Shown here: one piece after another, positions 33,101 to 64,000 of the stretch
How positions within the stretch are numbered: the first letter of the stretch is position 1
Layout of the letters: the number at the start of each line of letters is the position of its first letter
Source: a virus
IMG/VR virus record: IMGVR_UViG_3300024264_000019
Span: 1 to 64,000 of that record
Direction: 5' to 3' (one strand)
DNA length: 64,000 bases
Position numbers and translations under genes: made by a program
The notes under the pieces: generated by a model
The model's input: only the letters and a program-made list of their open reading frames with translations
Databases searched by the model: none
Told to the model about the DNA's origin: nothing

Positions 33101-35614
33101 TTCGAAAAGTCTATCTTTTTTTACTCCTTTTTTTCTAGCTGACAGATCAAAACTTGCTCCATCAGGAATATACTGAACATCAGAATAACCCTTTTTTTGT
33201 AAAAAAACCTTGCTTTGATACTCCCCCTCTAAGCCTTTTATTTTCGATGATAAACCTTGAAACAAATCACCTAATTGCTTTGGTTGTTTTTCAGTTTTTG
33301 AGTAATTATTAAATTTGCTATTTTGAATATTCTTAGCGGTTTCTAAAATTCCTTTATACGGTCCACTTTTTATTTGACTTCCGTATCTATTTCTAAAAGC
33401 CTTGACAGCTTTTTGATTTGTTTGATATTTTGTTAAACCTTTTTTCTCGGCTTCTGGACTTTTTTCTATCAATCCTGGCACCCCCTCACTCCCCCTAATT
33501 ATTTTTGCAGCATTTTTACCAAAAAAATCGTTATTCAAATCCATTTTTTGAACTTTTACCCTACCTATGAACCTGTCTGTTAAATCTGACAATCTAGATA
33601 TAGGCCCTTTACCAGCCGCTGACGCCCCTAGTTCTAGTGAGCTGTATGAATGTTTTTTATTTAATAATTTATTGAAATTAGGTATGAATCCATTTGCGGC
33701 TGTAATTTTTTTAGCGCCTTTTGGTAAGCCATACTGTTTAGCCATATCTCTATTGAAAATAGCCGTACCACCACCACCTCCAAAATTATTAACAGCCCAT
33801 TCTCCAGTATGAGCTACCACGTTTTCACTCCTCCCTCTTCCCATTTTATGGTTTTTTATTAAAACTGGCTTATCTGTTTTTCTAGCCCCACCAACTCCAG
33901 AGTTAATATCTTGTTTTTCTTTATTTAAAGATGGGAGAAACCCATTAGACATCCTTAAAGTATTCCTCCCTTTTGTTTTTGAAGCTCCCTTTCCGACTGG
34001 CACGAATCCTTTCTCTGATGCCCCAACTCCAATTAATCTAGAGCTCGCTGCGATTCTTTTTATTAAAGCCTCTTGTTTTAATCTTTCAGCGGTTTCCTGT
34101 TTAATTAAATTTAAAATTATTTGCTCTTGCTTTGCTGTACTACTTCCAGCTGCAAGAATTTTTTGGTATATTCCAGAATTAGTACTTAAGATTTGTCCTA
34201 TAGCTGCTTGTAACCCCTGCTGTCTTTTTGATTCTCTATTTAAACCAAGAATGTCAGAAAAAGCTTCTTTGGCGAATTTTGTTACAAGCCCAAAAATCTT
34301 AAGAAAAGCAGCTCCTAATATTACCATTCCAGGCCCAGTTAAAAAACTTCCAATCCCTCTTATTAAATTTTTAGCTACATTACTACCTTCATTTTCTGAA
34401 AGTAGATCGTTTAATTTTTGAGCTAAGCTATTTAGGAATGTTAAAATTTCTTTAAAATTTCCTGAAAAAGCTAAGTTCCCTATTGATGAGGCTAATTCTT
34501 TTGCGCTAAGCTGAGTTTGAGTAAACATAGCTGACAAGGTGGTGTTTAAATCTTTATTTCTTTGTATAGCTTCGTTTGTCGTATTATTTGCAACCCCCAA
34601 CGCTTTATTGTAAATTGAGTACCCACTATTTAAGTCTTGAATTAACGCTTGGAGATTTTGTATTTGGTAAACTCCAGCCAACTGCTCCGCTGTGTAGGCT
34701 TTTTGACTATCGCTTAATGTTTTATAGACTCCCGCATAATCTAGAATAACTGACATTGAATCTCTAAAACTTCCATCGTTATTTTTTGTAGTCACACCTA
34801 TTTCTTCTAAGGCTTCTCTGACCCCACTCCTCTTAATCCTTGTAAAAATACTCTTAAATCCATTACCAATAACAGACCCACCTCTAGCGGTTCTTTGTTG
34901 AACCGCAGTTACCACAGCAGCTAACTCGTTAAAAGAAACCCCTGAAGACTGAGCTACAGCCCCAGCTCTTGACATAGCTTCAGCTAAATCTGCAGATGAA
35001 ACAGCAAAAGCTGCGTCAACATTAGCCATTCTGTTAATTATTTGTGAATGAGTAATTCCTTCTTTATTAAAAGAGTTGATTGCAGCTGTTAAAGTTTCTG
35101 TCGACTTAACAGCATCTAAGCCTGACAATCGACTTAAGATTAAAGCTGAATTCACCCGAGCTAAAGTTTCTTCTGCGCTTAATCCTTGTCTAGCAAGTTC
35201 CGTGGCTGATTCCGCAACATCCTTAAAAGATGTTGCTGTATTTCTAGCAACATCAAAAAGTCCAGCTCCAAATTTTTGCATAGCTTGGTTTGAGGCTTCC
35301 ATAACTACCTGCACGTCTTTTAAAGATTTTTCGACTTCAGCGGTTGTTTGAATCATAGCTCTAAATGCGTCACTTACCCCATTAATTACTCCAACAGCAG
35401 CTCCAAAAGCAAAAACTCTAGCTGCAGAAGCATCCATGGATTTTTGAAACTCACTAGCTGAATTAGTTATTCTACCAAGGGGTTGAACGATACCATTGGC
35501 GTTTAGCGTAGGCGACATCTGCATTTTATTAACAGCTCTCTGCGCGCCCTGCGCATCTCTAATTATACTCTGCCTGTAACCAGTTGCAGCTGTAGGTATA
35601 TTAACAACACTCAT
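24131..35614 (-). CDS. Giant tape measure protein (3827 residues)
   Basis: Residues about 50-330 form a typical phage tail tape measure core (FRAMIQTTAEVEKSLKDVQ; TELARQGLSAEETL; AEAMSRAGAVAQSSG). A membrane-like helix (415-440) follows, then very long Lys-rich regions, Gly/Ala-rich hydrophobic stretches (2316-2398 and about 2905-2980) and helical C-terminal parts. The protein fixes tail length and is ejected during infection. At 0.15 nm per helical residue it would span up to about 570 nm. It contains about ten copies of a GFIPNFA-like motif, a duplicated 80-residue module, and three segments resembling PD-(D/E)XK nuclease cores, described under findings. A degenerate EF-hand-like loop (GNKDGNVTLKE) lies in the C-terminal third. 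Confidence 0.9.
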   Translation of the reverse strand: MSVVNIPTAATGYRQSIIRDAQGAQRAVNKMQMSPTLNANGIVQPLGRITNSASEFQKSMDASAARVFAFGAAVGVINGVSDAFRAMIQTTAEVEKSLKDVQVVMEASNQAMQKFGAGLFDVARNTATSFKDVAESATELARQGLSAEETLARVNSALILSRLSGLDAVKSTETLTAAINSFNKEGITHSQIINRMANVDAAFAVSSADLAEAMSRAGAVAQSSGVSFNELAAVVTAVQQRTARGGSVIGNGFKSIFTRIKRSGVREALEEIGVTTKNNDGSFRDSMSVILDYAGVYKTLSDSQKAYTAEQLAGVYQIQNLQALIQDLNSGYSIYNKALGVANNTTNEAIQRNKDLNTTLSAMFTQTQLSAKELASSIGNLAFSGNFKEILTFLNSLAQKLNDLLSENEGSNVAKNLIRGIGSFLTGPGMVILGAAFLKIFGLVTKFAKEAFSDILGLNRESKRQQGLQAAIGQILSTNSGIYQKILAAGSSTAKQEQIILNLIKQETAERLKQEALIKRIAASSRLIGVGASEKGFVPVGKGASKTKGRNTLRMSNGFLPSLNKEKQDINSGVGGARKTDKPVLIKNHKMGRGRSENVVAHTGEWAVNNFGGGGGTAIFNRDMAKQYGLPKGAKKITAANGFIPNFNKLLNKKHSYSSLELGASAAGKGPISRLSDLTDRFIGRVKVQKMDLNNDFFGKNAAKIIRGSEGVPGLIEKSPEAEKKGLTKYQTNQKAVKAFRNRYGSQIKSGPYKGILETAKNIQNSKFNNYSKTEKQPKQLGDLFQGLSSKIKGLEGEYQSKVFLQKKGYSDVQYIPDGASFDLSARKKGVKKDRLFETKATKKQNVVVALKKAADQYLNMVAAKQKGLGEKPIGHKNNKRENINLTSGNALFGGGINMITPSDTKLSQSVISANKESFKQTDSFRVLRSMIDPDFKNKQAIYKYSSQDKLSKIFSTRIKSIDNQKELEFYKKYVTNNLNKNATIPKSIEDFIKRKDSSQSQSLFLDPNHRIPSGGVRSASSGFIPNFIDKRNRYQKIQDTLKDPANKNIKFKSSLFKRESVSTVKKGMGGEFQKLWLESYFKKGLEGDFQMLMKMGYNPDKLLSLRKHFKKGGKIDIKTMGKGFIPNYANSSEVNSNLIPNFARNALSEALQRETEAGVPRSKIRIERSPDLITKENPIGLAVTNTRDEPMGISQGIKRAKAEGVDPRTYGSARAKTPNFAAGVQTKKGFFTTQKINRLKDGDFSKDPQGEKVYLNMFSVEDQKKIKGFKAQNSKENIVAKKQASRDIKNKMPTIDASTQATMLVATNNIRRRVDTSYKTEKGNVRMKYRVEGIKPKSLKNTEGNIRSRIEDLMLGESSRLAREMAGAGNFGMNIPGISRMANAGSVGSASGSIFETALQAVGKNRLFTKNNASFDINGTPDEKLQKLFGYYTPFADAKIALNADTKRDFSSKVLKIPQNTVKLSKAQKEKQMEVSRTSRKSYGPLTKAATGYIPNFAGLRKNQKQDLVTAGFAKNHKEASKKYNHMDHHYLIDKKLSKKEWLRQKSFDVEYGKMTGVRYLGKQKGYGAFPGNQEASIGSQTKRSSRIAKTSAVGAAVSMNAVSQIQNTVQGLVSRVGNIEKQIGVQNLSSGYIPNFALRDRDKSIRKLDPNTGSVGFIESIVKESMLSGDKNFTKEAKEVAGNRSLVIDRKNQEIKIDGKEISPKDLRRIILDPKNKKLIQGEVNSRLVKFQQKSGLAEHLNFFLGSGATPLEKRQKDMRSAVDIDKRHFFKDKGYWGMSGEGISSLIQKNGGRSLDLDNFLNQTVIHSQASTEKRRQLQEKNKKKKGRGINTSMLSPGYVSEKAQQLGLAVKDKAVAMGGKFMNTVGAIPSDLANIIDLRNMNLMSPVERASKKALEKKEKFIKKAVEAKEALESSKLNSLKNRSNIVRNATFRATGPDGIKYNDLKFVGSNDQTQTTRYYSKSTGKNVDFKGSEDPNGKKVQRLFEVENKAKAQIEKRTARREKLQGMKQDVKQYGTYFVDKAGNFVKSTAINLPKAIASGAVRSIASATGPFRQIDATRGISETLSLVGKGGSRVGSSVVNGLKNFKDKKMSLPMSGFIEGLNEKYERSKSVGRNVLAFGHKKIRKTRDKYQDSKKWMNDFFNSFGKNSFNPEVGSWSSGSSKEEKTKKSIIEKTKSIQNKTERSKIFKGISSAWGKGVNSFRDLLYVLENYEEVSKTGKAKGPSIFNKSFDQLTNVNYKQLGSRIKDGKAFLGEKLISPLTYYARTGASKTKEFGQKQFLNIQNKLIGLQKFGKEKFSKPREFLNKNKKRLGVAGALGAGAGAIGLGIKGLSGLSSVGQTVGLGGKAVAAGKLALGVGGAGGAGVGGSVVGDLLTTGGVGTGIGLAGYAMYKYRDKLKNNKLTKSLRESVSGVPIKMGSDTFYLKRKDAESYKRKNEDIKYDFKSTQSKAMDLLSGRSGGDVNELRNIEKQIEKIKIQKEALDEFYQKYSKKTQRGKPGKKRPTSLTRRLGGDGLPEYRFGSRSNRFSEGRIPNFARPARRFKQFNKNKYLKELKIGKNKNEQYKIDAYVKAAGGARKFQRIHEKFGLDKIDDVFQILGFSKGHIPNFSKLANLILAHNKKIQASKPLGGQEFSNLSGRVADFNRRIQGSKQGELKTRPVTSIDRKQPFKISKRNRIQDLDNIKRFTNSSEFKNLPKELQEKLILFYNNKKANVSSLKNMDPEYLRHSANPSFKGKISNYGNGFLPNFALDQAIARESEALKQRGISSSKIKVEKSSLLKGPMNPQGLAVINTVDEPMGIQQGINRANKTGLNPKTHGIPSFAISPEEKKLIKEKELFKLEQERKQSKLLGRDKILNPYAGMDSDKGFELKQQQDRHNQRSQGSRGFNKIRKHGLSPVARQRMSNANAMAGGASMGAMFMGPMAAEMIRDGRQDEAVGGSGRLGMDVLNSAAMGAAFGPIGMGLGAFQGVSSGLNQMSNRDSQADTFKALSKAKKDLDKVMKDTSSIQNLAMGVQQLQAASQSGDTKGIIAANTQIRESINKISDPEVQSRMNQLANSGMSASQKLALLGEAIKNMGAQAAARTALLQAGTAANEDDKMGPGTVAKSWFGDLVQTAVAGAKTGLDFLTGEGNTYDYNKETLSGRDPMQGKLGEATDMARNLNDSFETQARMLAQQQVASRISEGTSFVSGSEDLRGKTQEEIALARQTDLKLDAGMQQEEARAFNDLFKEAMSNFAKTGKLSTSKVGKSLEEMPGGAQSFENFDRLATSEDGTMLTFGGAVLKEFAQSALDGKEALESMGDGIQKAVEIQSKIVNLEEKLLSEYQNMLQAQQNVDTMMSRFQSNQSLKDYQGETKTMARSSANEYLSSRNYIDPRGFQGRQASIENDDIKRRNESGLITELMNEVASNIDMSALFNPSEIEKREMNIKEPKPTSGTGKFEQDVQRQQSEQNQMLARQFAEFAAGNKDGNVTLKEMKGFLGSIKGTGQKGNRIAQNARDLEVASSQKMIAELQRVAINQLIASGDASSSRLENQGGRRLNDGDIKTGVDAAINSDSSIIPTLGRLPTDDSAAPVADSIDAFRTLADVLGVSSTIFTGLNSDTENYIVALANVNDIMEQLQNMDPEKAAELRPVFEKIKANLEADLKNSERVAEELKKVAGKEGLDPNLVKDPIKGLTVQLGNLWKQGLAVTNLSTITTPLQDLVNRLTSQEGEPPVETPPNGGNSDGEKPPTTSPPEGSQDFSAAIKVIQELPAQLSEQLGGLVINHEVKGGITFDFNSEVVKGVLTPVMRDQLRSILQEGVILDYLATALAPKIDPQGVLR

Positions 35615-53518: not shown

Positions 53519-54564
53519 ACAACGTCTCCCTTCGATATCCCTAGTACTCTAGCCTTCCAAGAGTCCATACTCTCCAAATTGGTAGCTTCTTGATCGATTA
53601 GCATTTTTTGCTTCTCAGCCATGTCTACCATTCTTTCCCTGTCTGCTTCATTTTGAAAAGTTCTAACTAATGATAATATAGATGCATTATCTTTATGTTT
53701 ATTTTTAACTCTTTCTTTTCTATCTCCATTTAATCTCGCTATCAATGTCTCTTGTCTCTTTTCACATTGATTATACTCTTCACTTTTTGTTTTTAATAAT
53801 TCTGCTAATCTAACAGTCATATCTCTTTGATCCTCACACTCTTCAAACATTCTATTTAATTTATCTATAGCTTTACTTATATTTTTTAAATGTATATAAT
53901 CCATACAAACATTAATATATAAATTTAATTCATCACTAGTTAAGTCTGGTTTATCCCATACAGATCTTATATATTCAGCTTCGAATAAATGTCTATCATC
54001 CATAGCGCTATATGTGTTAACAACCTGAAGGAATCTAGGAGCTGACAAAAACTTAATGGTATTCTCTAAATGATCCAAGTCGTTTCTTGTCAACTCTTTT
54101 TCTGTTAATTCTTCTTGGCAGTATTCGTTAACCTTTTTAATCACTCTTGAAATTGATTTTGGCGCGAAATACTGAGCGTTCATAGCGCTTTCGTCTGGAT
54201 GTAAGAGCCTTTGATCAATATCTTCTATGAATTTAGCCACTTCCGTAACCTCTTTCGTTAAATTTGTTACGTTTATGTCTGGAAATAATATTTTAGATAT
54301 CTCGTAAGAGCTCATTCCTTCTTTAGCGTACTGAACTATAAACTCTTTTTGCTCTTGATTAAATTCAACATCTTCTCTTTTTTCCTTCTCTGTAGTTTTG
54401 TAATTTAACTTTTTATCCACTAAGAATTTCCTGACAGCTCTCCCCTCTTTAGTTCTTCCGTCTAAGCTTTCATCCTTAAAGGTTTGTCTAGTTAATTTTA
54501 TTAAGTCGTTGATTTTATCAAAGTTATTAGTGATAAATTCTTTTTGTTCTTCTGATAATTTCAT
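53515..54564 (-). CDS. HTH-containing protein, possible terminase small subunit
   Basis: The 349-residue protein contains NQEQKEFIVQYAKEGMSSYEISKILFPD (about 69-96), a helix-turn-helix with the look of small terminase or homeodomain-like DNA-binding segments, followed by long helical regions (NVCMDYIHLKNISKAIDKLNRMF; EDQRDMTVRLAELLKTKSEEYNQ). It lies two genes before terL and overlaps the sigma-like gene by 4 nt. A small terminase is the usual occupant, but at 349 residues it is longer than most. It could instead be a regulator. Confidence 0.45.
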   Translation of the reverse strand: MKLSEEQKEFITNNFDKINDLIKLTRQTFKDESLDGRTKEGRAVRKFLVDKKLNYKTTEKEKREDVEFNQEQKEFIVQYAKEGMSSYEISKILFPDINVTNLTKEVTEVAKFIEDIDQRLLHPDESAMNAQYFAPKSISRVIKKVNEYCQEELTEKELTRNDLDHLENTIKFLSAPRFLQVVNTYSAMDDRHLFEAEYIRSVWDKPDLTSDELNLYINVCMDYIHLKNISKAIDKLNRMFEECEDQRDMTVRLAELLKTKSEEYNQCEKRQETLIARLNGDRKERVKNKHKDNASILSLVRTFQNEADRERMVDMAEKQKMLIDQEATNLESMDSWKARVLGISKGDVV

Positions 54565-55292
54565 ATTATATCGTTTCTATTTATTAATTTTTTAGCTAAA
54601 TTTTTAAAAGTTTTCTCAAAATTTTTAATCTGCTTGTATCCAGCGCTTCGACCTCTTTCACTAGTTTTGTATCCCAATTTTTCAGCAGCTTTATTTATGT
54701 CTAAATTTTTAATGTATAGCATTTCATATATAGTGTATTGTTTTTCATTTAAAGTTTGCTTCATTAATTTATGAAGTTTTTTACTAGCAATATCAATATC
54801 AAAAGAGTTGTTGCATTTTTGCTGAAAGTCTTCAGTATCTAAGCTAGATGCTGTGTTTATATGAAATGAATGTTTTTTTGTTTTATTCCATTTCTTGAAT
54901 AAAGGGCAAGATGTATCTTGTTTTCCGCTTTTAGTCCAACTGCAAGTGTTATTCGATTCGTTAATGTTATCAATTGAACCCCCCGAATTAAATGGGCACC
55001 TTCCACAAGGTCTCAAGAAGTTACCGTAGGTATTTCTTAATAAATTTTTAATTTGGTTTGATATAATTCTATTAAGCCAAGGATCTAAGCTTCTACTTTG
55101 ATCCCATAATCCCCACTTAATGTAAACATGATTAGATATGATTTGCTTTACATCTTCCCAATCTATCCAGGGCGAACTACTTAAAAACCAACTTTTTTTC
55201 CGAGATTCAATTTTTTGAATTACGTGGTCGTATTTATCCTCGAAGGTTACTTTTTTAGGTTTAAGCTTCTTCTTCGGTTGATCTTTGCTCAT
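54561..55292 (-). CDS. Sigma factor-like protein with a four-Cys insertion
   Basis: The start MSKDQPKKKLK (55292) was preferred to a longer frame, because its distance from the preceding gene is more natural. The 243-residue product has WIDWEDVKQIISNHVYIKW followed by SLDPWLNRIISNQIKNLLRN (about 42-87), like sigma region 2 with its DNA-melting aromatic residues. Four Cys follow (96, 99, 117 and 129), spaced as a possible zinc site. Near the C-terminus, LNEKQYTIYEMLYIKNLDINKAAEKLGY resembles a region 4 helix-turn-helix. It probably directs late transcription. It overlaps the preceding gene by 32 nt and the next by 4. Confidence 0.6.
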   Translation of the reverse strand: MSKDQPKKKLKPKKVTFEDKYDHVIQKIESRKKSWFLSSSPWIDWEDVKQIISNHVYIKWGLWDQSRSLDPWLNRIISNQIKNLLRNTYGNFLRPCGRCPFNSGGSIDNINESNNTCSWTKSGKQDTSCPLFKKWNKTKKHSFHINTASSLDTEDFQQKCNNSFDIDIASKKLHKLMKQTLNEKQYTIYEMLYIKNLDINKAAEKLGYKTSERGRSAGYKQIKNFEKTFKNLAKKLINRNDII

Positions 55293-55566
55293 GTGGCAAC
55301 TTGCCAGCAATCTCTTCAAAAGTAAAAGTTCTTTTTTCAGCTATATCTATATCATATTGAAGTCTACTGATGTTTGGCACGTAATCTATGTTTGTAGTAT
55401 CATCGCTATTTATAGCGTCAGATACGTTGTGTGAATTCGCAACGGAACCTTTTGTTATTTTTTTAACAAGTTTATTGAGAGGTTCCCCACAATGACTACA
55501 AAACTTTGGCTCAATGCCAATGTAACTATTTTTCGCTCCACATGATTTACAATATTTAACGCTCAT
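55261..55566 (-). CDS. Small zinc-ribbon protein
   Basis: The 101-residue protein has an N-terminal zinc ribbon with Cys6, Cys9, Cys23 and Cys26 (YCKSCGAKNS and KFCSHCGEPL), followed by a disordered, acidic C-terminal half. Zinc ribbons of this kind bind nucleic acid or mediate protein contacts. It is coupled upstream by ATGA and overlaps the sigma-like gene downstream, so the two may act together. Confidence 0.7.
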   Translation of the reverse strand: MSVKYCKSCGAKNSYIGIEPKFCSHCGEPLNKLVKKITKGSVANSHNVSDAINSDDTTNIDYVPNISRLQYDIDIAEKRTFTFEEIAGKLPHEQRSTEEEA

Positions 55567-55836: not shown

Positions 55837-56028
55837 TTAAATTCTTTCAATAGTTTTAGCTTCAAGTTTAAGCGTTCCTTTTTTAAATAAACCTTCATTA
55901 TTATCAAGCAAAATAATAACAAAAGTTTTCCCATGATCGTCAAACCCTATTTGTGTATAAATTTTAATTACTTTTCCCGACTTAATGTCATTATCATAAT
56001 GAAATTTAATATAATCCCCCTCTTTCAT
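55837..56028 (-). CDS. Small beta-barrel-like hypothetical protein
   Basis: The start MKEGDYIKFHYDND (56028) overlaps the protease stop by 4 nt (ATGA), which decides against the longer frame. The 63-residue product resembles a small SH3-like or KOW-like barrel (GDYIKFHYDND, SGKVIKIYTQIG, KTFVIILLDN). It is translationally coupled to the protease gene. No function is known. Confidence 0.6.
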   Translation of the reverse strand: MKEGDYIKFHYDNDIKSGKVIKIYTQIGFDDHGKTFVIILLDNNEGLFKKGTLKLEAKTIERI

Positions 56029-57230
56029 TTTTGTTCGTTTTGAAATTTTTTGTCCCAATCTACATTGCCATTCTCATCTATGTATGGTGGTTTAGGTACG
56101 TCCACTTGTTGACTGCATTGGTACAACCCAACAGCTCCAACGAATAGCGCAAACGCGCTCAAGACAATCCAGGCGATATATTTCTTAAACCAATCTTTAA
56201 ATTTTAATTCAGGCTTAGGCTCTGGTTCAGGCTTAGGCTTAGGCTCTGGTTCAGGCTTAGGCTTAGGCTCTGGTTCAGGCTTAGGCTCTGGTTTAGAATC
56301 TTCAATAATCAAATCTTTAACATTTACGATTCCGTGCCCCCAGTAATTATCCTTACCTGAATCGCCTTTATCAATTGTATATTTCAATAAATGTTCTTTT
56401 ATTTGATCTACGGTTTTGCAATCATTTTGCCCAGATTCCTTTTCTTGTTTTTTATGTTTTGATAGCATGAGAGCAACAATTCCAACCATAAAAGGACAAG
56501 CCATGGAAGTGCCGCTTAGTACTGCATATGAATTATTTAAAAACGTGCTGTACACATTAACCCCTGGGGCAGCCCAATCCACTTCTGGACCTTTAGATGA
56601 AAACGAAGCGATCCTGCCCATTTCATCATACGCGGCAACAGCAATTGTCTCCTCATAAGCTGCGGGCCAGTTAACTCCTGAGTGGCCACTGTTTCCCGCC
56701 GCGCAAATTACAGGTATATTCATTTCATATAAAGTTTTAATTTTTTGCTCAATTAATGCGTGCGGACGAGATGACCCTAGGCTCATTGATACAATGTCAG
56801 GTTTTTCGTCGATAGCGTATTCCAAAGCTTTAACAAGACCATCAAATGTACCTGACCCGTTTTTATTTAAAGCTTTCACTGATACGCATGTTGACCTAGG
56901 CGCTACGCCAACCATTCCGAATTTATTATTTTTTGAACATATAATTCCAGTGCAATGACTTTGGTGCCCATTTAGATCTTCATGAGGCTCATTTAGTATA
57001 AAATTTTCACCAATCTTTGCGTTATCACCTATATCTTCATGAACGGGGTGTCCAGTGTCAATAACAATTATTTTCACCCCTTCTCCTTTGGTAATCTTCC
57101 AAGTTTCTGGAATCTTAGACTGTTTAACTCCCCAATCAATAATTTGATTTTTACTCAAATCATTAATTTCTTCTATACATATTATTGGTAGAGAAGTCTT
57201 AATTTTGTTTAATTCTTTATAGTTATACAT
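56025..57230 (-). CDS. Subtilisin-like serine protease with C-terminal membrane anchor
   Basis: The 401-residue S8-family protease has all catalytic parts: Asp58 in VIDTG, His92 in NGHQSHCTG, oxyanion Asn180 in AAGNSG, and Ser242 in SGTSMACPF. The fold ends near residue 308. A PKPEPEP-type linker (313-340) and one membrane helix (IAWIVLSAFALFVGAVGLY, 352-370) follow, then a short tail. No signal peptide or long propeptide is seen, so the catalytic domain may stay in the cytoplasm, attached to the inner face of the membrane, or insert by its C-terminal helix. A role in virion processing or in host membrane protein cleavage is possible. The linker DNA is repetitive. Confidence 0.9.
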   Translation of the reverse strand: MYNYKELNKIKTSLPIICIEEINDLSKNQIIDWGVKQSKIPETWKITKGEGVKIIVIDTGHPVHEDIGDNAKIGENFILNEPHEDLNGHQSHCTGIICSKNNKFGMVGVAPRSTCVSVKALNKNGSGTFDGLVKALEYAIDEKPDIVSMSLGSSRPHALIEQKIKTLYEMNIPVICAAGNSGHSGVNWPAAYEETIAVAAYDEMGRIASFSSKGPEVDWAAPGVNVYSTFLNNSYAVLSGTSMACPFMVGIVALMLSKHKKQEKESGQNDCKTVDQIKEHLLKYTIDKGDSGKDNYWGHGIVNVKDLIIEDSKPEPKPEPEPKPKPEPEPKPKPEPEPKPELKFKDWFKKYIAWIVLSAFALFVGAVGLYQCSQQVDVPKPPYIDENGNVDWDKKFQNEQK

Positions 57231-58445: not shown

Positions 58446-58661
58446 ATGAACATTACTAAAGGATTAAAAGTCGGAAGCCTATATCATTCACGGGCAAATA
58501 ATAAAGTCGTGCGTCTCGTTTCACTTGATCGCATTAAAGGTGGCTTGCAAGTTGCAACAATCAAGCATCACAAACAAGATCATTTGTTTGAATCGGAGGT
58601 TTACATCTCTGACTTAATCAAGGCAACTACTGAACAAGTCAAGGCTTACTTTAAAAGGTAA
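58446..58661 (+). CDS. Hypothetical small basic protein
   Basis: The 71-residue product has strands KGLKVGSLYHSRANNKVVRLVSLDR and GGLQVATIKHH, like a small SH3-type barrel, followed by an acidic helix ending KAYFKR. Not recognised. It is the only gene of its transcription unit unless the next one is co-transcribed; a new promoter starts 4 nt after its stop. Confidence 0.6.
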   Translation: MNITKGLKVGSLYHSRANNKVVRLVSLDRIKGGLQVATIKHHKQDHLFESEVYISDLIKATTEQVKAYFKR

Positions 58662-58664
58662 GTC

Positions 58665-58693
58665 TTGACACGACAAACAATAAAAGCCATAAT
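58665..58693 (+). promoter_or_regulatory. Leaderless promoter 2 of the right arm
   Basis: TTGACA (58665-58670), 17 nt, CATAAT (58688-58693), then 5 nt to the ATG at 58699. Confidence 0.65.
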
Positions 58694-58698
58694 TAGGA

Positions 58699-58872
58699 AT
58701 GATTAAAATAATAAGAAACCCAAACTTTGCCGAATGGCTCGACATTAAAGTATTCGACAAACTAATCGACAACGCCAAGACACAGGCGAAAGCTATGAAA
58801 ATAGCCGAGCAAGTCAAAAGCAAAAACCCACATTTTCAAATTGTAACAATAGAGGAAAAGACAAATGCGTAA
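58699..58872 (+). CDS. Hypothetical 57-residue protein
   Basis: The small frame lies exactly behind a leaderless promoter and overlaps the next gene by 8 nt. The product (starting MIKIIRNPNFAEWLDIKVFD) is a helix-rich basic protein with a C-terminal strand HFQIVTIEEK, compatible with a beta-alpha-beta fold. It looks like a real gene, but no family is recognised. Confidence 0.6.
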   Translation: MIKIIRNPNFAEWLDIKVFDKLIDNAKTQAKAMKIAEQVKSKNPHFQIVTIEEKTNA

Positions 58873-59170
58873 AGTAACAGAGCAAATAAAGCAAGCCTTC
58901 AATCAAGGCTTATCTAAAAAAGTCGGCAACACAAGAACAGACGGCAATAGCGTTTTCTTGCATGGTAACGAGATAATAAAGCGTGATGCAAGCGGGCTTG
59001 TAATGGCTACCCTTGCAGGGTGGAATACTCCCACAACAAGAGAAAGGATCAATGGCATAACAGGATTAGGCATTTATCAAAAGAACTTCGTTCCTATGTT
59101 AAACGGGCAAGAAGTTGATTCATACGATTGGCTAGTTCATACGACCAATACAGAGGAGGGTACAATATGA
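58865..59170 (+). CDS. Hypothetical protein
   Basis: The 101-residue product begins MRKVTEQIKQAFNQGLSKKV and contains TDGNSVFLHGNEIIKRDASG and LATLAGWNTPTTRERINGI. Proteins with this pattern of an N-terminal helix and a Gly/Asn-rich core occur in plasmids and phages, without known activity. It overlaps the upstream gene by 8 nt and is coupled downstream to a 16-codon frame by ATGA. Confidence 0.6.
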   Translation: MRKVTEQIKQAFNQGLSKKVGNTRTDGNSVFLHGNEIIKRDASGLVMATLAGWNTPTTRERINGITGLGIYQKNFVPMLNGQEVDSYDWLVHTTNTEEGTI

Positions 59171-59217
59171 CTTGCATAATCCTCTTATCAGTTGCACTAT
59201 ACCTCTATTCACTTTAA
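59167..59217 (+). CDS. Candidate 16-residue hydrophobic peptide
   Basis: ATG at 59167 overlaps the preceding TGA (ATGA), with a strong GGAGGG ribosome binding site 6-8 nt upstream. The peptide, MTCIILLSVALYLYSL, is almost entirely hydrophobic and could span or sit in the membrane. It is followed 11 nt later by palindromic element A. Very short, but the coupling and ribosome site favour translation. Confidence 0.4.
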   Translation: MTCIILLSVALYLYSL

Positions 59218-59227
59218 TTAAAACGCT

Positions 59228-59334
59228 CTCCTAAGTCGCTGATAGTCAGGCACTTAGGCGGGCGGCTGCCGCCCTCGTAAGTGATTGGTAAACAACGACT
59301 TGCGAAAGCCTTGTTCATAAACCATGCCAATTCA
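59228..59334 (+). repeat. Palindromic element, copy A
   Basis: Three nested stems: outer AAGTCG/CGACTT (59233-59238 with 59296-59301), middle CACTTA/TAAGTG (59251-59256 with 59278-59283) and apex GGGCGG/CCGCCC (59260-59265 with 59269-59274) around CTG. The similarity to copy B continues for about 30 bp after the outer stem (TTCA, then ACCATGCCAATT). It lies 3' of the 58699-59217 gene group. No T-run follows, so it is not a standard terminator. Confidence 0.85.
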
Positions 59335-59383
59335 CGCAGTATAATAATGCAATAAAATAACTGCAATATAATTGCGAATAAAT

Positions 59384-59412
59384 TTGACTTTAGTTAAAAA
59401 AAGCCTTAGTTT
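59384..59412 (+). promoter_or_regulatory. Leaderless promoter 3 of the right arm
   Basis: TTGACT (59384-59389), 17 nt, TAGTTT (59407-59412), then 6 nt to the ATG at 59419. The surrounding 25 bp (AATAAATTTGACTTTAG and following A-run) is repeated at promoter 4. Confidence 0.75.
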
Positions 59413-59418
59413 ATATAT

Positions 59419-59769
59419 ATGAAATCATTATACAACACAGACACAGAAGAATTCACTTTTAGCTTTATCATGTGCATTGAGGGTAAATCCTACCGAGTCG
59501 AGGCAGTAGCTTGTCAAGACGACATCCTGTTGAGCGATCAATATCGCCCCGAATACATTGACGCATACATGGCTAAATTGACAAACGAAAAAACAAACGA
59601 ATTGACAGAGTCAAATGTCTACAAAAATACAGATCTTTTAAAGGTTGTAAGCGACAAACTTACAGAAAGGCTAATTACGAACGCGAGCAAAACTTGGTTT
59701 GTTACTGATGCCCCAAGGCTTTTCCTTGAGCAATTCGATACTCGCCTAGAAATAATGTTTAATAAATAA
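59419..59769 (+). CDS. Hypothetical acidic protein
   Basis: The 116-residue product starts MKSLYNTDTEEFTFSFIMCI with beta strands (FTFSFIMCIEGKSYRVEAVAC) and continues as helices with many Thr/Asn/Glu. Not recognised. It is a single-gene unit: leaderless promoter upstream and the next promoter beginning 13 nt after its stop. No palindromic element follows. Confidence 0.6.
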   Translation: MKSLYNTDTEEFTFSFIMCIEGKSYRVEAVACQDDILLSDQYRPEYIDAYMAKLTNEKTNELTESNVYKNTDLLKVVSDKLTERLITNASKTWFVTDAPRLFLEQFDTRLEIMFNK

Positions 59770-59781
59770 CCACAAATAAAT

Positions 59782-59810
59782 TTGACTTTAGTTAAAAAAT
59801 AAACGATAGT
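59782..59810 (+). promoter_or_regulatory. Leaderless promoter 4 of the right arm
   Basis: TTGACT (59782-59787), 17 nt, GATAGT (59805-59810), then 6 nt to the ATG at 59817. TAGTAT (59807-59812) is an alternative -10 box. Confidence 0.65.
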
Positions 59811-59816
59811 ATAAGT

Positions 59817-60032
59817 ATGACAGAAAGAGAAATAAAATCAAAAATTAGAGACTTAAAGAATCGATTAGATGCCGACCATTATGAAAGAGGCGTCGGGTTT
59901 GTACCTGCTAAGGGTTCAACTCGCGAATGGATCTTATCTAGCTTAGAAACCTTCGAGAAGATGTTGCCAAGAGCAAAGCATGACGACCAAGTAGCTCTTT
60001 ATGGTTGGAGATCAGTCGAAAGAAACGCTTAA
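59817..60032 (+). CDS. Hypothetical small protein
   Basis: The 71-residue protein has an N-terminal helix (TEREIKSKIRDLKNRLDADHYERG) and a Trp-containing C-terminal part (TREWILSSLETFEKM; ALYGWRS). It resembles small DNA-associated accessory proteins of plasmids or phages in composition only. First gene of a three-gene unit that ends at palindromic element B. Confidence 0.6.
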   Translation: MTEREIKSKIRDLKNRLDADHYERGVGFVPAKGSTREWILSSLETFEKMLPRAKHDDQVALYGWRSVERNA

Positions 60033-60051
60033 ACCACTTAAACCAAAAATC

Positions 60052-60252
60052 ATGACAGACACACTAAAGCAAGAAAAAAGAAGGCTTCAAGCCATCATTG
60101 ACAACAATAACAACGAAGCAGAAAATGGATCTGCTTCGGCTCAAATGCAAGTAATATCTGCACAGGCGGATCTTGACAGAATCGCACAGAGTGAGCTTGC
60201 TCAGTATATAGCAAGCACGCCTTTACCTAAACCTTTAATCTTAGTAGACTAA
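60052..60252 (+). CDS. Hypothetical small helical protein
   Basis: The start MTDTLKQEKRRLQAIIDNNN (60052) was preferred to an ATG at 60001 that would lie inside the preceding gene. The 66-residue product is mostly helix (likely coiled coil), with a Pro-rich end (ASTPLPKPLILVD). No ribosome binding site is evident. The next ATG is 4 nt after the stop. Confidence 0.55.
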   Translation: MTDTLKQEKRRLQAIIDNNNNEAENGSASAQMQVISAQADLDRIAQSELAQYIASTPLPKPLILVD

Positions 60253-60255
60253 GCC

Positions 60256-60429
60256 ATGCAGTACATAAAAGAAACAATCAACAAACTAAATCAACAAATT
60301 AAAGCTTTAAATCACGAAAGGGTTAAAGCTGTAAGATTGGGCAATAATAAGAAGGCTTCGGACATTGAAATCATACAAATAGAATTAGACAATAAAATAA
60401 CACAATTAGAGGGTTTAGCACATCGATAA
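60256..60429 (+). CDS. Hypothetical 57-residue coiled-coil protein
   Basis: A frame from ATG 60256 to TAA 60429 encodes a single amphipathic helix (MQYIKETINKLNQQIKALNH, then further heptad-like repeats with Ile/Leu). Adjacent to a similar helical protein, it might pair with it. Followed 6 nt later by palindromic element B. Confidence 0.55.
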   Translation: MQYIKETINKLNQQIKALNHERVKAVRLGNNKKASDIEIIQIELDNKITQLEGLAHR

Positions 60430-60434
60430 AGCCC

Positions 60435-60540
60435 TTCCCTAAGTTACTGATAATCAGGCACTTACGGGATCGGCTGCCGCCCTCGTAAGTGCTTGGTAAA
60501 CAACGACTTACGAAACACCTGTTCACATACCATGCCAATT
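60435..60540 (+). repeat. Palindromic element, copy B
   Basis: Same design as copy A: TAAGTT with GACTTA outer arms (one G.T pair), CACTTACG/CGTAAGTG middle stem, and GGCTGCCGCC at the apex. It shares the 3' extension (GTTCA, then ACCATGCCAATT) with copy A. It follows the 60256 gene. The 75 bp after it contain a small CCTAT/ATAGG hairpin and no gene. Confidence 0.85.
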
Positions 60541-60616
60541 ACCACACCTAAAAAGATGACCTATCCTACTAGCAGAATAGGGCAAAAACATAGTTGAAAG
60601 GTAATTCGCTATTGAT

Positions 60617-60645
60617 TTGACTTCAATAGGCTTAGCCTTTACATT
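60617..60645 (+). promoter_or_regulatory. Leaderless promoter 5 of the right arm
   Basis: TTGACT (60617-60622), 17 nt, TACATT (60640-60645), then 6 nt (GTATTT) to the ATG at 60652. Confidence 0.75.
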
Positions 60646-60651
60646 GTATTT

Positions 60652-60807
60652 ATGGAAATTAAAATTAAATCTCTCTCTACTTGGGCTAATGTCGTTTTTG
60701 AATTATATATCGGAAACAATTATTCAGGATCATTTGATTCTTTCAAGGAAGCCCAAAGCTACGGGCTTAAACTGACAAACTCTTTTCTTTTACTAGAAAA
60801 TAAGTAA
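60652..60807 (+). CDS. Hypothetical 51-residue protein
   Basis: The small frame sits exactly behind a leaderless promoter. The product starts MEIKIKSLSTWANVVFELYI, continues GNNYSGSFDSFKEAQSYGLK and ends FLLLENK. It has alternating strands and one helix, consistent with a tiny beta-rich domain. Its position makes it very likely to be expressed. Function unknown. Confidence 0.65.
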   Translation: MEIKIKSLSTWANVVFELYIGNNYSGSFDSFKEAQSYGLKLTNSFLLLENK

Positions 60808-60850
60808 AAAATAATTCGCAATTAATTAAAACATAGTTTACTTTATATAT

Positions 60851-61108
60851 ATGGAAGATAATAATCAAGATCGGATATCAATTGGTGATGTCATAGACAA
60901 TAACGCATATAAGAATGAAAAAGCTTATAATTTGACAAGGGCTCTTCTAGATATTGCTATTCTTGCAAGAGCTGTAAAGCATACAGCAAGCGAAGATATT
61001 AGAGGGAATGGAATGGTGGCAATTGACAATGTCAATGATTGGATGACCGAAATCAATAACATTGCAAATAAAGCCGTTAAAAAAGAAATGTTAACAGAAA
61101 AACTATAA
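60851..61108 (+). CDS. Hypothetical protein, first of a two-gene unit
   Basis: The 85-residue helical protein starts MEDNNQDRISIGDVIDNNAY and has YNLTRALLDIAILARAVKHT. A TACTTT hexamer (60839-60844) ends 6 nt before the ATG, matching the arm's rule, though the -35 box (TCGCAA, 60816-60821) is poor. The next gene starts 12 nt downstream with an AAGGAA ribosome binding site, so the second cistron uses a normal initiation signal. Confidence 0.6.
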   Translation: MEDNNQDRISIGDVIDNNAYKNEKAYNLTRALLDIAILARAVKHTASEDIRGNGMVAIDNVNDWMTEINNIANKAVKKEMLTEKL

Positions 61109-61120
61109 GGAAATATAATT

Positions 61121-61462
61121 ATGGAAAATTTAGATGCAGCTTTTGAACTTTACGAAATTGACGAAGAAACTTTGACTTGTTCTTACTCGGATGATGACGG
61201 ATCTTATATCGAGTTGACTTGCTCCTTATGGACTGATGAAATTGACAACCTTTGGGGTGATCAAGTTTCATCTGTTTCCTTAATTGGTTACTTTGACAAA
61301 GTTGAACAAGTTGAATCCTTTGATGTAAATGGTAAAAAAGTTGACTTTGTTAAGCTTGACGAAGTTGAAAGAGTCAAAAAAATACTCGAAAATGAAGAAT
61401 TTGAACTTGAAGAAACCTCTTGCAAAGTTGACTATTCCCCTCGCTACTATGATCTAGTATAA
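61121..61462 (+). CDS. Hypothetical strongly acidic protein
   Basis: The 113-residue product has very many Asp and Glu and few basic residues in its first 60 positions (ELYEIDEETLTCSYSDDDGS), with beta strands and Trp/Tyr. Acidic small phage proteins sometimes mimic DNA to block host nucleases, but no such homology is claimed. It has an AAGGAA ribosome site and is followed by palindromic element C. Confidence 0.6.
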   Translation: MENLDAAFELYEIDEETLTCSYSDDDGSYIELTCSLWTDEIDNLWGDQVSSVSLIGYFDKVEQVESFDVNGKKVDFVKLDEVERVKKILENEEFELEETSCKVDYSPRYYDLV

Positions 61463-61478
61463 TAGTAGAATAAGTCAC

Positions 61479-61558
61479 CTTCCTAAGTTACTGATAGTCA
61501 GGCACTTAGCGAGGCGGCTGCCGCTTCTGTAAGTGCCTAACAGCCAACGACTTACAGA
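61479..61558 (+). repeat. Palindromic element, copy C
   Basis: Arms CTTCCTAAGTTACTGATAG at the 5' side and CCAACGACTTACAG at the 3' side. The middle stem is GGCACTTA/TAAGTGCC (8 bp), and the apex GGCGGCTGCCGC. It lies 3' of the 60851-61462 unit. The A and B 3' extension is absent here. The remaining 130 bp to the next promoter are AT-rich and empty. Confidence 0.85.
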
Positions 61559-61691
61559 TCGATGGAATAAGTTAGGAAAAAAGTGTTATAATACGCGAAG
61601 CAAAAATCGTATTTTTATACTTTTTTATATGTATTTGTCTATTTACTATTTATACTATTTACTATTAAGTGAAAAAGTTTTTCAATTCTAT

Positions 61692-61720
61692 TTGACTTCT
61701 ATTAATATATGTATTAGTTT
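61692..61720 (+). promoter_or_regulatory. Leaderless promoter 6 of the right arm
   Basis: TTGACT (61692-61697), 17 nt, TAGTTT (61715-61720), then 6 nt (TATAAT) to the ATG at 61727. The TATAAT itself is a second possible -10 box, but would put the start inside the gene. Confidence 0.75.
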
Positions 61721-61726
61721 TATAAT

Positions 61727-61873
61727 ATGATAAATAAGAAAATTGAAAAATTCATTCAAGACAATGATCTTGTTCGTGTTCTAGCTAGTCCAATGTCCGA
61801 GACCTTTGATCTCTGGGAATGCCCAGGCGGTCATGTTTGGACTTTTGAGATGATCGAGCAAGCAATAAAATAA
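61727..61873 (+). CDS. Hypothetical 48-residue protein
   Basis: A short frame directly behind a leaderless promoter. The product starts MINKKIEKFIQDNDLVRVL and ends with a Trp-rich, Cys-containing part (FDLWECPGGHVWTFEMIEQA). The Gly-Gly and Trp/Cys spacing suggests a compact fold. The next promoter begins 12 nt after its stop. Confidence 0.65.
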   Translation: MINKKIEKFIQDNDLVRVLASPMSETFDLWECPGGHVWTFEMIEQAIK

Positions 61874-61885
61874 TTGCGAATAAAT

Positions 61886-61914
61886 TTGACGCAACTTAAA
61901 AAATAGATTACCTT
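61886..61914 (+). promoter_or_regulatory. Leaderless promoter 7 of the right arm
   Basis: TTGACG (61886-61891), 17 nt, TACCTT (61909-61914), then 7 nt to the ATG at 61922. Confidence 0.7.
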
Positions 61915-61921
61915 TATATAT

Positions 61922-62137
61922 ATGACAGAAAAAAATGATTCACTTACTCGCCTTGCTCACGCCACTGGAATGACCGACATAGAATTTGAGGAACGCTCTC
62001 GAATTCAATCTGAACTTGCCCATCAACAAGTTGTCCGCCAGTGGGAGGAGGATCAGGAGGCTGACCGCCAAGCTCTAAAGGGGTTTTCGGAGAATGAGGA
62101 TGTTGATTGGGGTTATCATGACCAACTAGAGTTTTAA
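61922..62137 (+). CDS. Hypothetical acidic small protein
   Basis: The 71-residue product begins MTEKNDSLTRLAHATGMTDI and is a helical, acidic protein with many Glu and Gln (EEDQEADRQALKGFSENEDV). It is followed 5 nt later by palindromic element D. Not recognised. Confidence 0.6.
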   Translation: MTEKNDSLTRLAHATGMTDIEFEERSRIQSELAHQQVVRQWEEDQEADRQALKGFSENEDVDWGYHDQLEF

Positions 62138-62142
62138 TGTAA

Positions 62143-62213
62143 ACTCTTTATAATCAGCCACTTAGGTGGTTGGCTGCCGCCCGCCCTAAGTGCTTGATAC
62201 TCAAAGACTTAAA
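62143..62213 (+). repeat. Palindromic element, copy D
   Basis: A more diverged copy. The middle stem is CACTTAGG/CCTAAGTG (62159-62166 with 62185-62192), the apex GGCTGCCGCCC, the outer arms TCTTT/AAAGA, and AGACTT is kept at the 3' end. It is 3' of the last plus-strand gene. The 135 bp that follow, up to the end of the convergent gene at 62350, hold no gene. Confidence 0.75.
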
Positions 62214-62349
62214 GCGGGGGTTTTACCAATAACAACTACTTCACATAAAGATATAATAAAAAAGCCAAAAAGATTATTTCAATCATTCTTCTTTCAAATC
62301 CTCCCACATTAAGTAAAAAACAAAAAGCCAAGGTGAAAACAATACTAAT

Positions 62350-62613
62350 TCAAGAATCATTATAAATGCCTTTCATTTGGTCAGAGATGCCCATGTCTTC
62401 ATCTTCTTCGTCAATATCTTCTGCTGAATCAGTAAAGAGAAACTGAGATTCGTCAGCAAGATCTTCTTTTTGAGCATCTAGCAAACCATGCTCGGTTACT
62501 ACTTGCTCTGTTTTAATCTCTGCAATAAATTCCTCTATGGGCTGAGATGGCGTTATGGATTTTGAGTTTTCGACTGCTTTAGCGATAACTGCGATTCTTT
62601 GTTCTTCTGTCAT
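62350..62613 (-). CDS. Hypothetical very acidic protein
   Basis: The 87-residue product is extremely acidic towards its C-terminus (DSAEDIDEEDEDMGISD), with a helix at the start (EEQRIAVIAKAVENSK). It has no recognised domain. It uses a leaderless promoter whose -35 box lies within the last codons of the upstream gene. A DNA-mimic or adaptor function is possible, but nothing proves it. Confidence 0.6.
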   Translation of the reverse strand: MTEEQRIAVIAKAVENSKSITPSQPIEEFIAEIKTEQVVTEHGLLDAQKEDLADESQFLFTDSAEDIDEEDEDMGISDQMKGIYNDS

Positions 62614-62619
62614 AATAGT

Positions 62620-62648
62620 AATATAGTTTAGTTGTGATTAGTAGTCAA
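62620..62648 (-). promoter_or_regulatory. Leaderless promoter 8 of the right arm
   Basis: On the minus strand: TTGACT (62648-62643), 17 nt, TATATT (62625-62620), then 6 nt to the ATG at 62613. The -35 box is formed by the last Leu-Asp-Tyr codons of the upstream gene. Confidence 0.75.
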
Positions 62649-63000
62649 GTCCTAATTCTTTGTTGTGATCCGCTTGAGTCTTTCTTAATAAATCAACCCA
62701 TGTAAATCCATTAAGTTGGGCATCTCTCATGTGTTTGCTAATTTGAACAGGAGATTGCCAACCAAGAACATCGCCACATACTGCAAGAGGAATATCCACA
62801 TCTTTGAAAGTCATTAAAACTTCAAACTCCTTATCGTCAACATGACCATAAAGACCATGACCATCTCCTGAATTAGCGATCACAGAAATCATAAAGTCGC
62901 CAAACTTTAATTGAGCGATGACTTTCTCTGTGCCTGTTCCTTCGTACATTGTAATAAAAGCAAGGTTATCGAAGTCGAGTAATTGTTGTTTTGTTGTCAT
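62638..63000 (-). CDS. Hypothetical protein
   Basis: The 120-residue product has a central beta part (KVIAQLKFGDFMISVIANSG, then LYGHVDDKEFEVLMTF) and a C-terminal helical section with Trp (GFTWVDLLRKTQ). Not recognised. It has its own leaderless promoter. Its last codons overlap the promoter of the next gene. Confidence 0.6.
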   Translation of the reverse strand: MTTKQQLLDFDNLAFITMYEGTGTEKVIAQLKFGDFMISVIANSGDGHGLYGHVDDKEFEVLMTFKDVDIPLAVCGDVLGWQSPVQISKHMRDAQLNGFTWVDLLRKTQADHNKELGLDY

Positions 63001-63006
63001 AAGTAT

Positions 63007-63035
63007 AATGTAATCTAGTTTAATTGTCTTGTCAA
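63007..63035 (-). promoter_or_regulatory. Leaderless promoter 9 of the right arm
   Basis: On the minus strand: TTGACA (63035-63030), 17 nt, TACATT (63012-63007), then 6 nt to the ATG at 63000. Upstream CTTTTTATTTGACAAG is identical in promoter 10. Confidence 0.8.
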
Positions 63036-63055
63036 ATAAAAAGAATAAATTTTCA

Positions 63056-63262
63056 CTAGAATTTTAATGCTTGTAATCGAGTGTTTTTCTTTAACCATCT
63101 GCGCAACGGATGAAATGCTCTAGCACTAAGGTGGGCTAAATACTGCTGTCCATTCTTGGCAAGAATCATATGACCGCTTGCTGTCTCACGAACCTCTTGG
63201 ATATCAGGACATTTCCGTAATTGTTTTAACACTTTGCGAGTTCCACTTTCTGAATGTTTCAT
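63056..63262 (-). CDS. Small basic protein, possibly HicA-like fold
   Basis: The 68-residue basic protein (VLKQLRKCPDIQEVRETASG, then GHMILAKNGQQYLAHLSARA, ending RRWLKKNTRLQALKF) resembles the HicA/YcfA small double-stranded-RNA-binding fold: an N-terminal helix, two strands around a Gly-His, and a C-terminal R-R-x-L helix. HicA proteins are mRNA-cleaving toxins or phage regulators. No HicB partner lies next to it, and the match is only by pattern. It has its own leaderless promoter. Confidence 0.5.
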   Translation of the reverse strand: MKHSESGTRKVLKQLRKCPDIQEVRETASGHMILAKNGQQYLAHLSARAFHPLRRWLKKNTRLQALKF

Positions 63263-63268
63263 AATACT

Positions 63269-63298
63269 AATATAATCTTGTTAGGTGGTGCTTGTCAA
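63269..63298 (-). promoter_or_regulatory. Leaderless promoter 10 of the right arm
   Basis: On the minus strand: TTGACA (63298-63293), 18 nt, TATATT (63274-63269), then 6 nt to the ATG at 63262. Confidence 0.75.
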
Positions 63299-63334
63299 AT
63301 AAAAAGAATAAAAAAAGAAAGAATTAAAACGCTT

Positions 63335-63412
63335 ACGCAAGTACGTGAATAACAACCACTTACATCGGCGGCAGCGGCGGCACCTAAGTGCCTGACAATC
63401 AAAGACTTAGTA
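63335..63412 (-). repeat. Palindromic element, copy E (minus strand)
   Basis: On the minus strand it starts at the stop codon of the 63407 gene. It shows AAGTCTTTGATTGTCAGG, the CACTTA/TAAGTG middle stem, GCTGCCGCC at the apex, and ACTT closing the outer arm. The 5' half of the apex stem is lost (GCCGCC instead of GGCGG), although CTGCCGC is kept as in all copies. Orientation follows the minus-strand genes. Confidence 0.75.
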
Positions 63413-63613
63413 GCCTAACCATTCAAGAACTTTTTGGGCTGAGTATCCGTCTTGATCGCCCATGTCCTCAAAAAATTTGCAAATTTCTTCGTTTGATGTG
63501 ACCCCGTGTTGCTCTAACTCTTTCAATGCCCTATCTTGCGAAATATCAACGGCATAAGCTGAGTCAAAATAATCGTTTCCAATTTCTGTTCTAATTTCAA
63601 TTTTTTCACTCAT
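63407..63613 (-). CDS. Hypothetical acidic small protein
   Basis: The 68-residue product (MSEKIEIRTEIGNDYFDSAY, then helices ending VLEWLGY) is acidic. Its ATG overlaps the preceding stop by 4 nt and has a good AAGGAG ribosome site, so as a downstream cistron it is initiated in the usual way. Element E starts at its stop codon. Confidence 0.6.
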   Translation of the reverse strand: MSEKIEIRTEIGNDYFDSAYAVDISQDRALKELEQHGVTSNEEICKFFEDMGDQDGYSAQKVLEWLGY

Positions 63614-64000
63614 GAATTTTCTCCTTCTACTACAAACCCTGTTTCGTCTTTCTTGGCAAGACCTTTTTCGATAAGACCAACAACAACACCTTTCTTGTCA
63701 AGAAATCGCAAGTCAGTTTCATCACCATTGACGACCTCAAAACCTTTCCATGTTTTGGGTAATTGATTGCGAAATACAACGGCAACATTGCCACCCATTA
63801 AAAGAACCATTTCGCACTTTTTATCGTTATTCTCTGAGCGAGAAAAAGTCAAATGATAATTAGAGGGAAACTTTGCCTCGCCCTTGATAAAAGGCTTGCC
63901 AAGGAAAGAACACATTCTCTTGAATGACTTGGTATAATCGTAAAATTGAGTGGATGAATGTTTTTCTAGAATGGTCACACCATCCTCATTGATCTCATTT
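63610..64000 (-). CDS. Partial CDS, hypothetical protein cut by the window end
   Basis: The frame remains open past a GTG at 63978 to the window edge (NEINEDG precedes the V), so the true start is probably outside. The visible 130 residues include beta strands (CEMVLLMGGNVAVVFRNQLP), FEVVNGDETDLRFLDKKG and an acidic end. Not recognised. It is translationally coupled to the next gene. Confidence 0.6.
   Translation of the reverse strand, partial: NEINEDGVTILEKHSSTQFYDYTKSFKRMCSFLGKPFIKGEAKFPSNYHLTFSRSENNDKKCEMVLLMGGNVAVVFRNQLPKTWKGFEVVNGDETDLRFLDKKGVVVGLIEKGLAKKDETGFVVEGENS

Follow-up and report, generated by a model that had tools for sequence, protein, structure and literature searches.

The REP/BIME sequences of enterobacteria are inverted palindromic units, composite in structure, that occupy 3' ends as well as the spaces separating convergent genes. 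In phages, the promoter-early stem-loops (PeSLs) of the T4 type are reportedly the subject of work by Arbiol in 2010 and Comeau in 2014. One account presents PeSLs as promoter-terminator motifs that mediate modular shuffling in T4-type phages (PMC4503421). Two further systems are known from mycobacteriophages: in the SAS/ESAS arrangement of cluster K, 17 bp inverted repeats with 4-13 bp spacers lie near a 13-bp start-associated sequence (PMC3203893), and in cluster A the stoperators are 13-bp asymmetric sites that are bound by a monomeric repressor and have been proposed to halt elongation (PMC9283540).

We analyzed a 64,000-nucleotide stretch of viral DNA (the window), taken from a virus record of 78,208 bases. 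An element of ~72 bases, in which two 25-base palindromes (P1 and P2) flank a GC-rich core, was found at all five places where the initial annotation had reported a repeat, with refined limits and with the shared motifs in the order that it gave. Copy 1 (59232-59302, + strand) consists of the P1 dyad (59232-59256), a GC core with a GGCWGCC center (59257-59277) and the P2 dyad (59278-59302); copy 2 (60440-60510, +) of P1 (60440-60464), core (60465-60485) and P2 (60486-60510); and copy 3 (61484-61554, +) of P1 (61484-61508), core (61509-61529) and P2 (61530-61554). Copies 4 (62140-62211, +) and 5 (63338-63409, -) have cores of 22 nt. The small-gene groups ended by copies 1-4, all on the + strand, occupy 58446-59170 (ORFs 58446-58661, 58699-58872, and 58865-59170), 59419-60429, 60652-61462, and 61727-62137, and their 3' ends are 61, 10, 21, and 2 nt from the element, respectively; copy 4 is placed tail-to-tail, with convergent gene groups on either side. 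Copy 5 ends a group on the - strand, the 3' part of which lies at 63407-63978; its second gene (GP88 family) continues past the window, and ORF 63407-63613 (-) stops at the first TAA of the copy. The core pattern, CACTTA followed by a short gap and GGC(A/T)GC(A/C/G)GC, occurred seven times in the window versus 0 in 100 shuffles. Beyond the window, five further copies were present at 64411-64481, 65220-65291, 66683-66754, 68144-68215, and 69577-69648, and all ten copies of the record lie inside a single ~10 kb small-gene array adjoining phoH, with the terminase and large structural-type ORFs located elsewhere in the window, away from the array.

The wider search, over related viral contigs, yielded about 270 distinct copies in relatives. 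In each element, a 12-base arm, TAAGTCGTTGAT, occurs four times and builds two 25-bp dyads, between which lies a core of 83% GC; in the idealized dyad, TAAGTCGTTGAT-N-ATCAACGACTTA, two arms face each other head to head across a single base. Iterative profile searches of the related viral contigs gave 100 copies, and a single-dyad search raised the number to 339 dyad pairs, spread over 65 sequences (722,589 bases), with 0 pairs in the shuffled control. The filtered set comprised 272 distinct elements at 53 loci, which are not all independent because some came from the same or near-identical contigs. Core length was near-constant within each phage, the modal length accounting for 85% of a record's copies, and it varied across phages (25, 22, 21, 23, 17, and other lengths; range, 14-28 nt). 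At the variable arm positions, identity was 63% within and 61% between records, whereas core identity was 66% within versus 53% between; therefore, the arms are shared by nearly all of these phages and the core is phage-specific. Arm positions A2, A3, and T9 were near-invariant among 1088 arms, and, since this set was picked by weight matrix, part of the invariance reflects selection, although a looser set gave the same pattern. The retention of CTGCCGC in all copies, pointed out in the initial annotation, holds in the window's sub-lineage, whereas other phages have different cores; the recognition by sequence that it suggested is supported by arms conserved across phages.

According to automatic gene calling, 85 copies were placed tail-to-head, 16 tail-to-tail, and three head-to-head. 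Two of the three head-to-head calls look genuine (one in G009, the other in G012 with an inverted one-gene cassette), and the remaining one (G010:584) was discarded as a gene-calling error after inspection of the sequence. Thus, the position directly after a gene group, as described initially, applies to all five copies of the window but is not an absolute rule, at least two copies being head-to-head in relatives. The accompanying claim that the element follows the strand of its gene group was reduced to a tendency (49 copies match, 10 do not, and 26 are unscorable), and the record copy at 64411-64481 runs opposite to its genes. The stop codon of the upstream gene coincided with the terminal TAA of the element in 28 of 117 cases.

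The side of the element that faces a gene head carries promoter-like sequences. In the window's sub-lineage, 49 of 92 head sides have a -35 box, TTTTTTCTTG, that begins 19-21 nt from the element, a distance at which none of the 117 tail sides has it, and an ATG follows 61-63 nt past the element, downstream of this box. The promoter has the form TTG(CG), ~20 nt, TAnn(A/G/T)TG, and its spacing probably resembles that of the Bacteroidota promoter. As read from the sequence, it terminates at the ATG, and therefore the messages look leaderless; after copy 1, for example, a promoter-like sequence (59384-59421, +; TTGACT ... TAGTTTATATATATG) ends at the ATG of ORF 59419-59769. On approximately 40% of head sides the promoter is of a different class and its distance from the element varies. 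A second promoter class, at 70-180 nt, serves rightward operons, among them the ones that follow copies 1-3 in the window. The fixed 62-nt spacing from element to start is limited to the window's sub-lineage and is not general in the wider family; descent by copying of the whole element-promoter unit could account for it.

Compared by description, PeSLs are the system that the element would seem to work most like. Both combine a boundary palindrome and an early promoter as a repeated unit in a shuffled small-gene region, the spacing being fixed in 49 of 92 cases here; the element differs in that a GC core separates the two dyads of its palindrome, without a T-run or covariation, in an uncultured lineage. 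Like SAS/ESAS, it is an inverted repeat with a spacer, is found many times in the non-structural half of a genome, lies upstream of some of the genes, and has a repeat consensus that varies by phage; unlike them, it has four 12-bp arms and a GC core of 14-28 nt, and no SAS-like motif was seen. It shares with stoperators the location in short intergenic spaces and the correlation with transcription direction, but protein recognition is a fact for stoperators and putative for the element, which is symmetric and a composite of 25-bp dyads; assignment to the stoperators was thus rejected for want of a 13-bp asymmetric site. REP/BIME sequences are likewise composite inverted palindromic units at comparable gene borders, whereas the element differs in sequence, is bound up with phage early operons, and comes with no RAYT-type transposase that we could find; with no PF01797 protein in 16 records and arms not homogenized within genomes, REP/BIME membership was also rejected. 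The element thus has features in common with PeSLs, ESAS, and stoperators, and we do not assign it to any of the three.

With moderate confidence, we propose that the element is a putative protein-recognized DNA operator or insulator at operon borders, which would double as a joint for cassette recombination. It would act as a double-stranded DNA recognition site with a GC-rich spacer of fixed length per phage, and we infer that a sequence-specific protein, presumably as one dimer per dyad, binds the four half-sites at the borders of early operons. Once bound, the element may serve as an operator or insulator that sets neighboring operons apart, may stop elongating polymerase arriving from either side, and would fix the upstream edge of the leaderless promoter of the following operon. 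General recombination at the elements would then exchange, move, or invert whole cassettes; because every cassette ends in the same sequence, the element would supply the homology for exchange. Four points weigh against this proposal: the other promoter class on many head sides, the restriction of the 62-nt spacing to one sub-lineage, the chance that this spacing stems from copying of the whole unit, and the stable RNA folds of individual copies.

The alternative that survives best is that the element functions as a structured 3' RNA, as the initial annotation had suggested. Here, a transcribed long hairpin would bring about the end, the processing, or the protection of the transcript in both directions, as a factor-dependent terminator or an RNase III-type site. 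We consider this unlikely, although it would account for the element nearly always adjoining a gene 3' end, for the separation of convergent operons by exactly one element in most arrays, and for the agreement between transcription direction and core orientation in 49 of 59 scorable copies. Individual copies also folded well as RNA (mean z of about -3 and mean energy of -24 kcal/mol; z < -2 in 64 and at least 10 P1-P2 pairs in 75 of the 101 copies folded), as would be expected for sequences of such symmetry. However, RNAalifold returned zero consensus pairs on 76 copies, and complementarity between the halves, within the halves, and in the core equaled that of shuffled partners with one pair excepted, a result with which the 272-copy set agreed. 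The single covarying pair, at position 6 of the inner arms, alternates between C-G and G-C in a lineage-like switch. The arms otherwise vary independently, which a DNA site under protein binding would predict and a stem would not; the structured RNA was therefore not upheld, the lack of covariation on 76 and then 272 copies being what the initial annotation had itself named as evidence against it. It is possible to draw its outer, middle, and apical stems, but they pair only as well as the symmetry of the consensus would make them. An excess of anti-complementarity (z of about -5 to -6) is not claimed, as it was absent from the reliably oriented set, and we left the negative z values uninterpreted because near-palindromic cores make orientation uncertain.

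Termination by itself was also considered. Of 117 gene-end sides, 112 had no T-run terminator either within the element or behind it, which argues against the 3' RNA, and the longest T-run within 15 nt of the element was at most 3 in 65 of 101 copies. As initially stated, no T-run follows the five copies of the window, ruling out an ordinary terminator there, and an intrinsic (rho-independent) terminator was rejected since the combination of a GC-rich hairpin and an immediate T-run was not found. In most of these phages, canonical terminators with hairpin and T-run already sit between the c12 stop, often also the c15 stop, and the next element; therefore, the element is not needed as a terminator at those borders, whereas at other borders it could act as one. 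The two head-to-head copies also speak against a 3' RNA. Neither Rfam (0 window matches above the gathering score) nor a tRNA/tmRNA scan of the window recorded a known RNA.

Returning to the proposed operator and recombination joint, we compared gene maps of 13 regions and observed the same gene groups, each closed by an element, in orders that differed between phages. The c5-c22 group is located before the c19..c13 group in G012, after it in G002, and behind c7-c12 in G003; no element lies between c22 and c19 in the window's phage and in G014, where another gene is found instead, and one cassette is inverted in G012. In pairs of elements, one flank was at least 84% identical (up to 98.7% over 300 bp) and the other largely unrelated, indicating a switch at the border. 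When switch points were placed by likelihood in 26 pairs, which are non-independent and several of which share events, they were spread over the flank, the halves, and the core, with several of the best-resolved points at the edge between near half and core. A sharp crossover in the core, at which the flank comparison had hinted, was not upheld by this placement. The scattered breakpoints and the permutation of cassettes fit a putative general recombination at a common border sequence, which we infer as the route of exchange. As for the mobile or recombination site raised in the initial annotation, its link with recombination of small-gene cassettes held, but a dedicated mobile or site-specific site did not, given the scattered breakpoints and the lack of a recombinase or Y1 transposase.

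That the element is where an integron-like or resolvase-like cassette system carries out site-specific recombination, with crossover in the core, appears improbable on the same data. Such a site would explain why cassettes are permuted and inverted at element borders, why chimeric elements are half shared and half not, and why the best-resolved recent switches fall within the core or at its edge. However, the breakpoint posteriors run from the near flank to the far flank without a single crossover position, and a site of this kind would not need a fixed spacing between element and promoter. In addition, a search limited to tyrosine recombinases (PF00589), serine recombinases (PF00239), and Y1 transposases (PF01797) detected its positive controls but no such protein in 16 large records, which are possibly incomplete. 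An integron attC-type site was rejected in particular, with neither a phage-encoded recombinase nor a fixed crossover found.

The strict composite pattern was found in none of 84,980 species genomes, and single dyads were found in 13 bacterial contigs. One Microscillaceae genome (6.8 Mb) contained the exact 25-bp dyad 824 times, and a matrix scan of 148 kb of it gave 191 dyads, which were rarely paired and about one-third of which were inside ORFs; in a sample of 296 genomes of its phylum, dyads were confined to this one. Equally improbable is an origin of the element as a mobile palindromic repeat of the REP/BIME or MITE type, carried by transposition to its places between operons: the element is multi-copy, palindromic, and intergenic, with inverted repeats at its ends, and the Microscillaceae genome is rich in exact dyads and matrix hits, but the arms are hardly more alike within than between genomes, unlike the outcome of recent spread, related phages retain the positions at the same cassette ends, the 16 phage records lack a PF01797 transposase, and the bacterial dyads are mostly single, often inside ORFs, and not composite.

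Homologues of the window's PhoH were identified in 39 of the 40 element-bearing records tested, at 36-81% identity; therefore, the element marks one deep uncultured caudoviral lineage. The element region had no match in any isolated phage of the phage collection, and we found no matching sequence or description of the element in the literature. A broader version of the operator proposal, which we offer as a speculation and think rather unlikely, is that a single conserved DNA-binding protein would read the universal four-copy 12-base arm throughout the lineage, the phage-specific spacing and spelling of the core would confer identity, and every early operon would be a plug-in cassette, insulated and interchangeable. 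Since at least one bacterial genome uses this dyad hundreds to thousands of times, phages and host would then be expected to have the protein in common. On the operator proposal itself, the element would be a boundary code for early operons that has persisted among phages with PhoH identities down to 36%, in a lineage with no cultured member. The element would offer a simple test of how phages hold shuffled accessory genes transcriptionally apart and a sequence handle by which to recognize the lineage in metagenomes, and the dyad of the Microscillaceae genome may be a route to the host and the binding protein.

Genes c12 and c36 are linked to the element by co-occurrence alone. The nearest cultured-phage relative of the array genes was a c12 homologue of Salinibacter phages, 26% identical; in one phage with such a distant homologue, M8CC-19, the 20.7 kb checked contained no dyad. 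The terminase of the window gave a weak match to a T4-type domain.

Downstream of the stop codons of gene clusters c12 and c15 of the small-gene array, a canonical hairpin and T-run terminator precedes the element (L022:1311-1341 and L022:5680-5700 in the record DNA beyond the window, record positions 65311-65341 and 69680-69700), and these terminators are conserved in relatives. A second conserved motif, GTWCAnnAAnCRTGCCAAYY, was observed after the element and before rightward operons in many relatives, and lies at 59312-59332 and 60520-60540 in the window. Read as its reverse complement (TTGGCAYG...), this motif resembles a sigma-54 promoter that would be directed back through the element. 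In most operons of window 58446-62137 and L022, the -10 box ends approximately 6 nt ahead of the ATG; thus, the early genes of these regions appear to be leaderless.

Exact copies of the TAASTNNYTGATNATCARNNASTTA dyad occur 824 times in the Microscillaceae MAG G015 (L045, L049, and L111-L122), where matrix matches reach a density of approximately 1.3 per kb, ORF interiors included, and 0-8 times in near kin of this MAG. In G015, the dyad is like a highly iterated palindrome.

Within the array, the 109-aa protein of cluster c46 (L035:6772-7101) carries a YIGKTR motif like that of GIY-YIG nucleases and had no Pfam match. It is accompanied by a 330-aa c45 protein, and the pair is located within an operon in one relative (G003) and forms a separate cassette in another (G012).

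Elsewhere in the window, a phage-encoded sigma factor (54561-55319), whose homologue at L039:14829-15557 matches Sigma70_r2, was kept in 17 of 48 loci. A single ORF of 3,827 aa (24131-35614, minus strand) probably encodes a giant structural protein, and a subtilase-family protease (56025-57230, minus strand) bears a proline linker of the PEPKPKPEP type and a hydrophobic stretch at its C-terminus.
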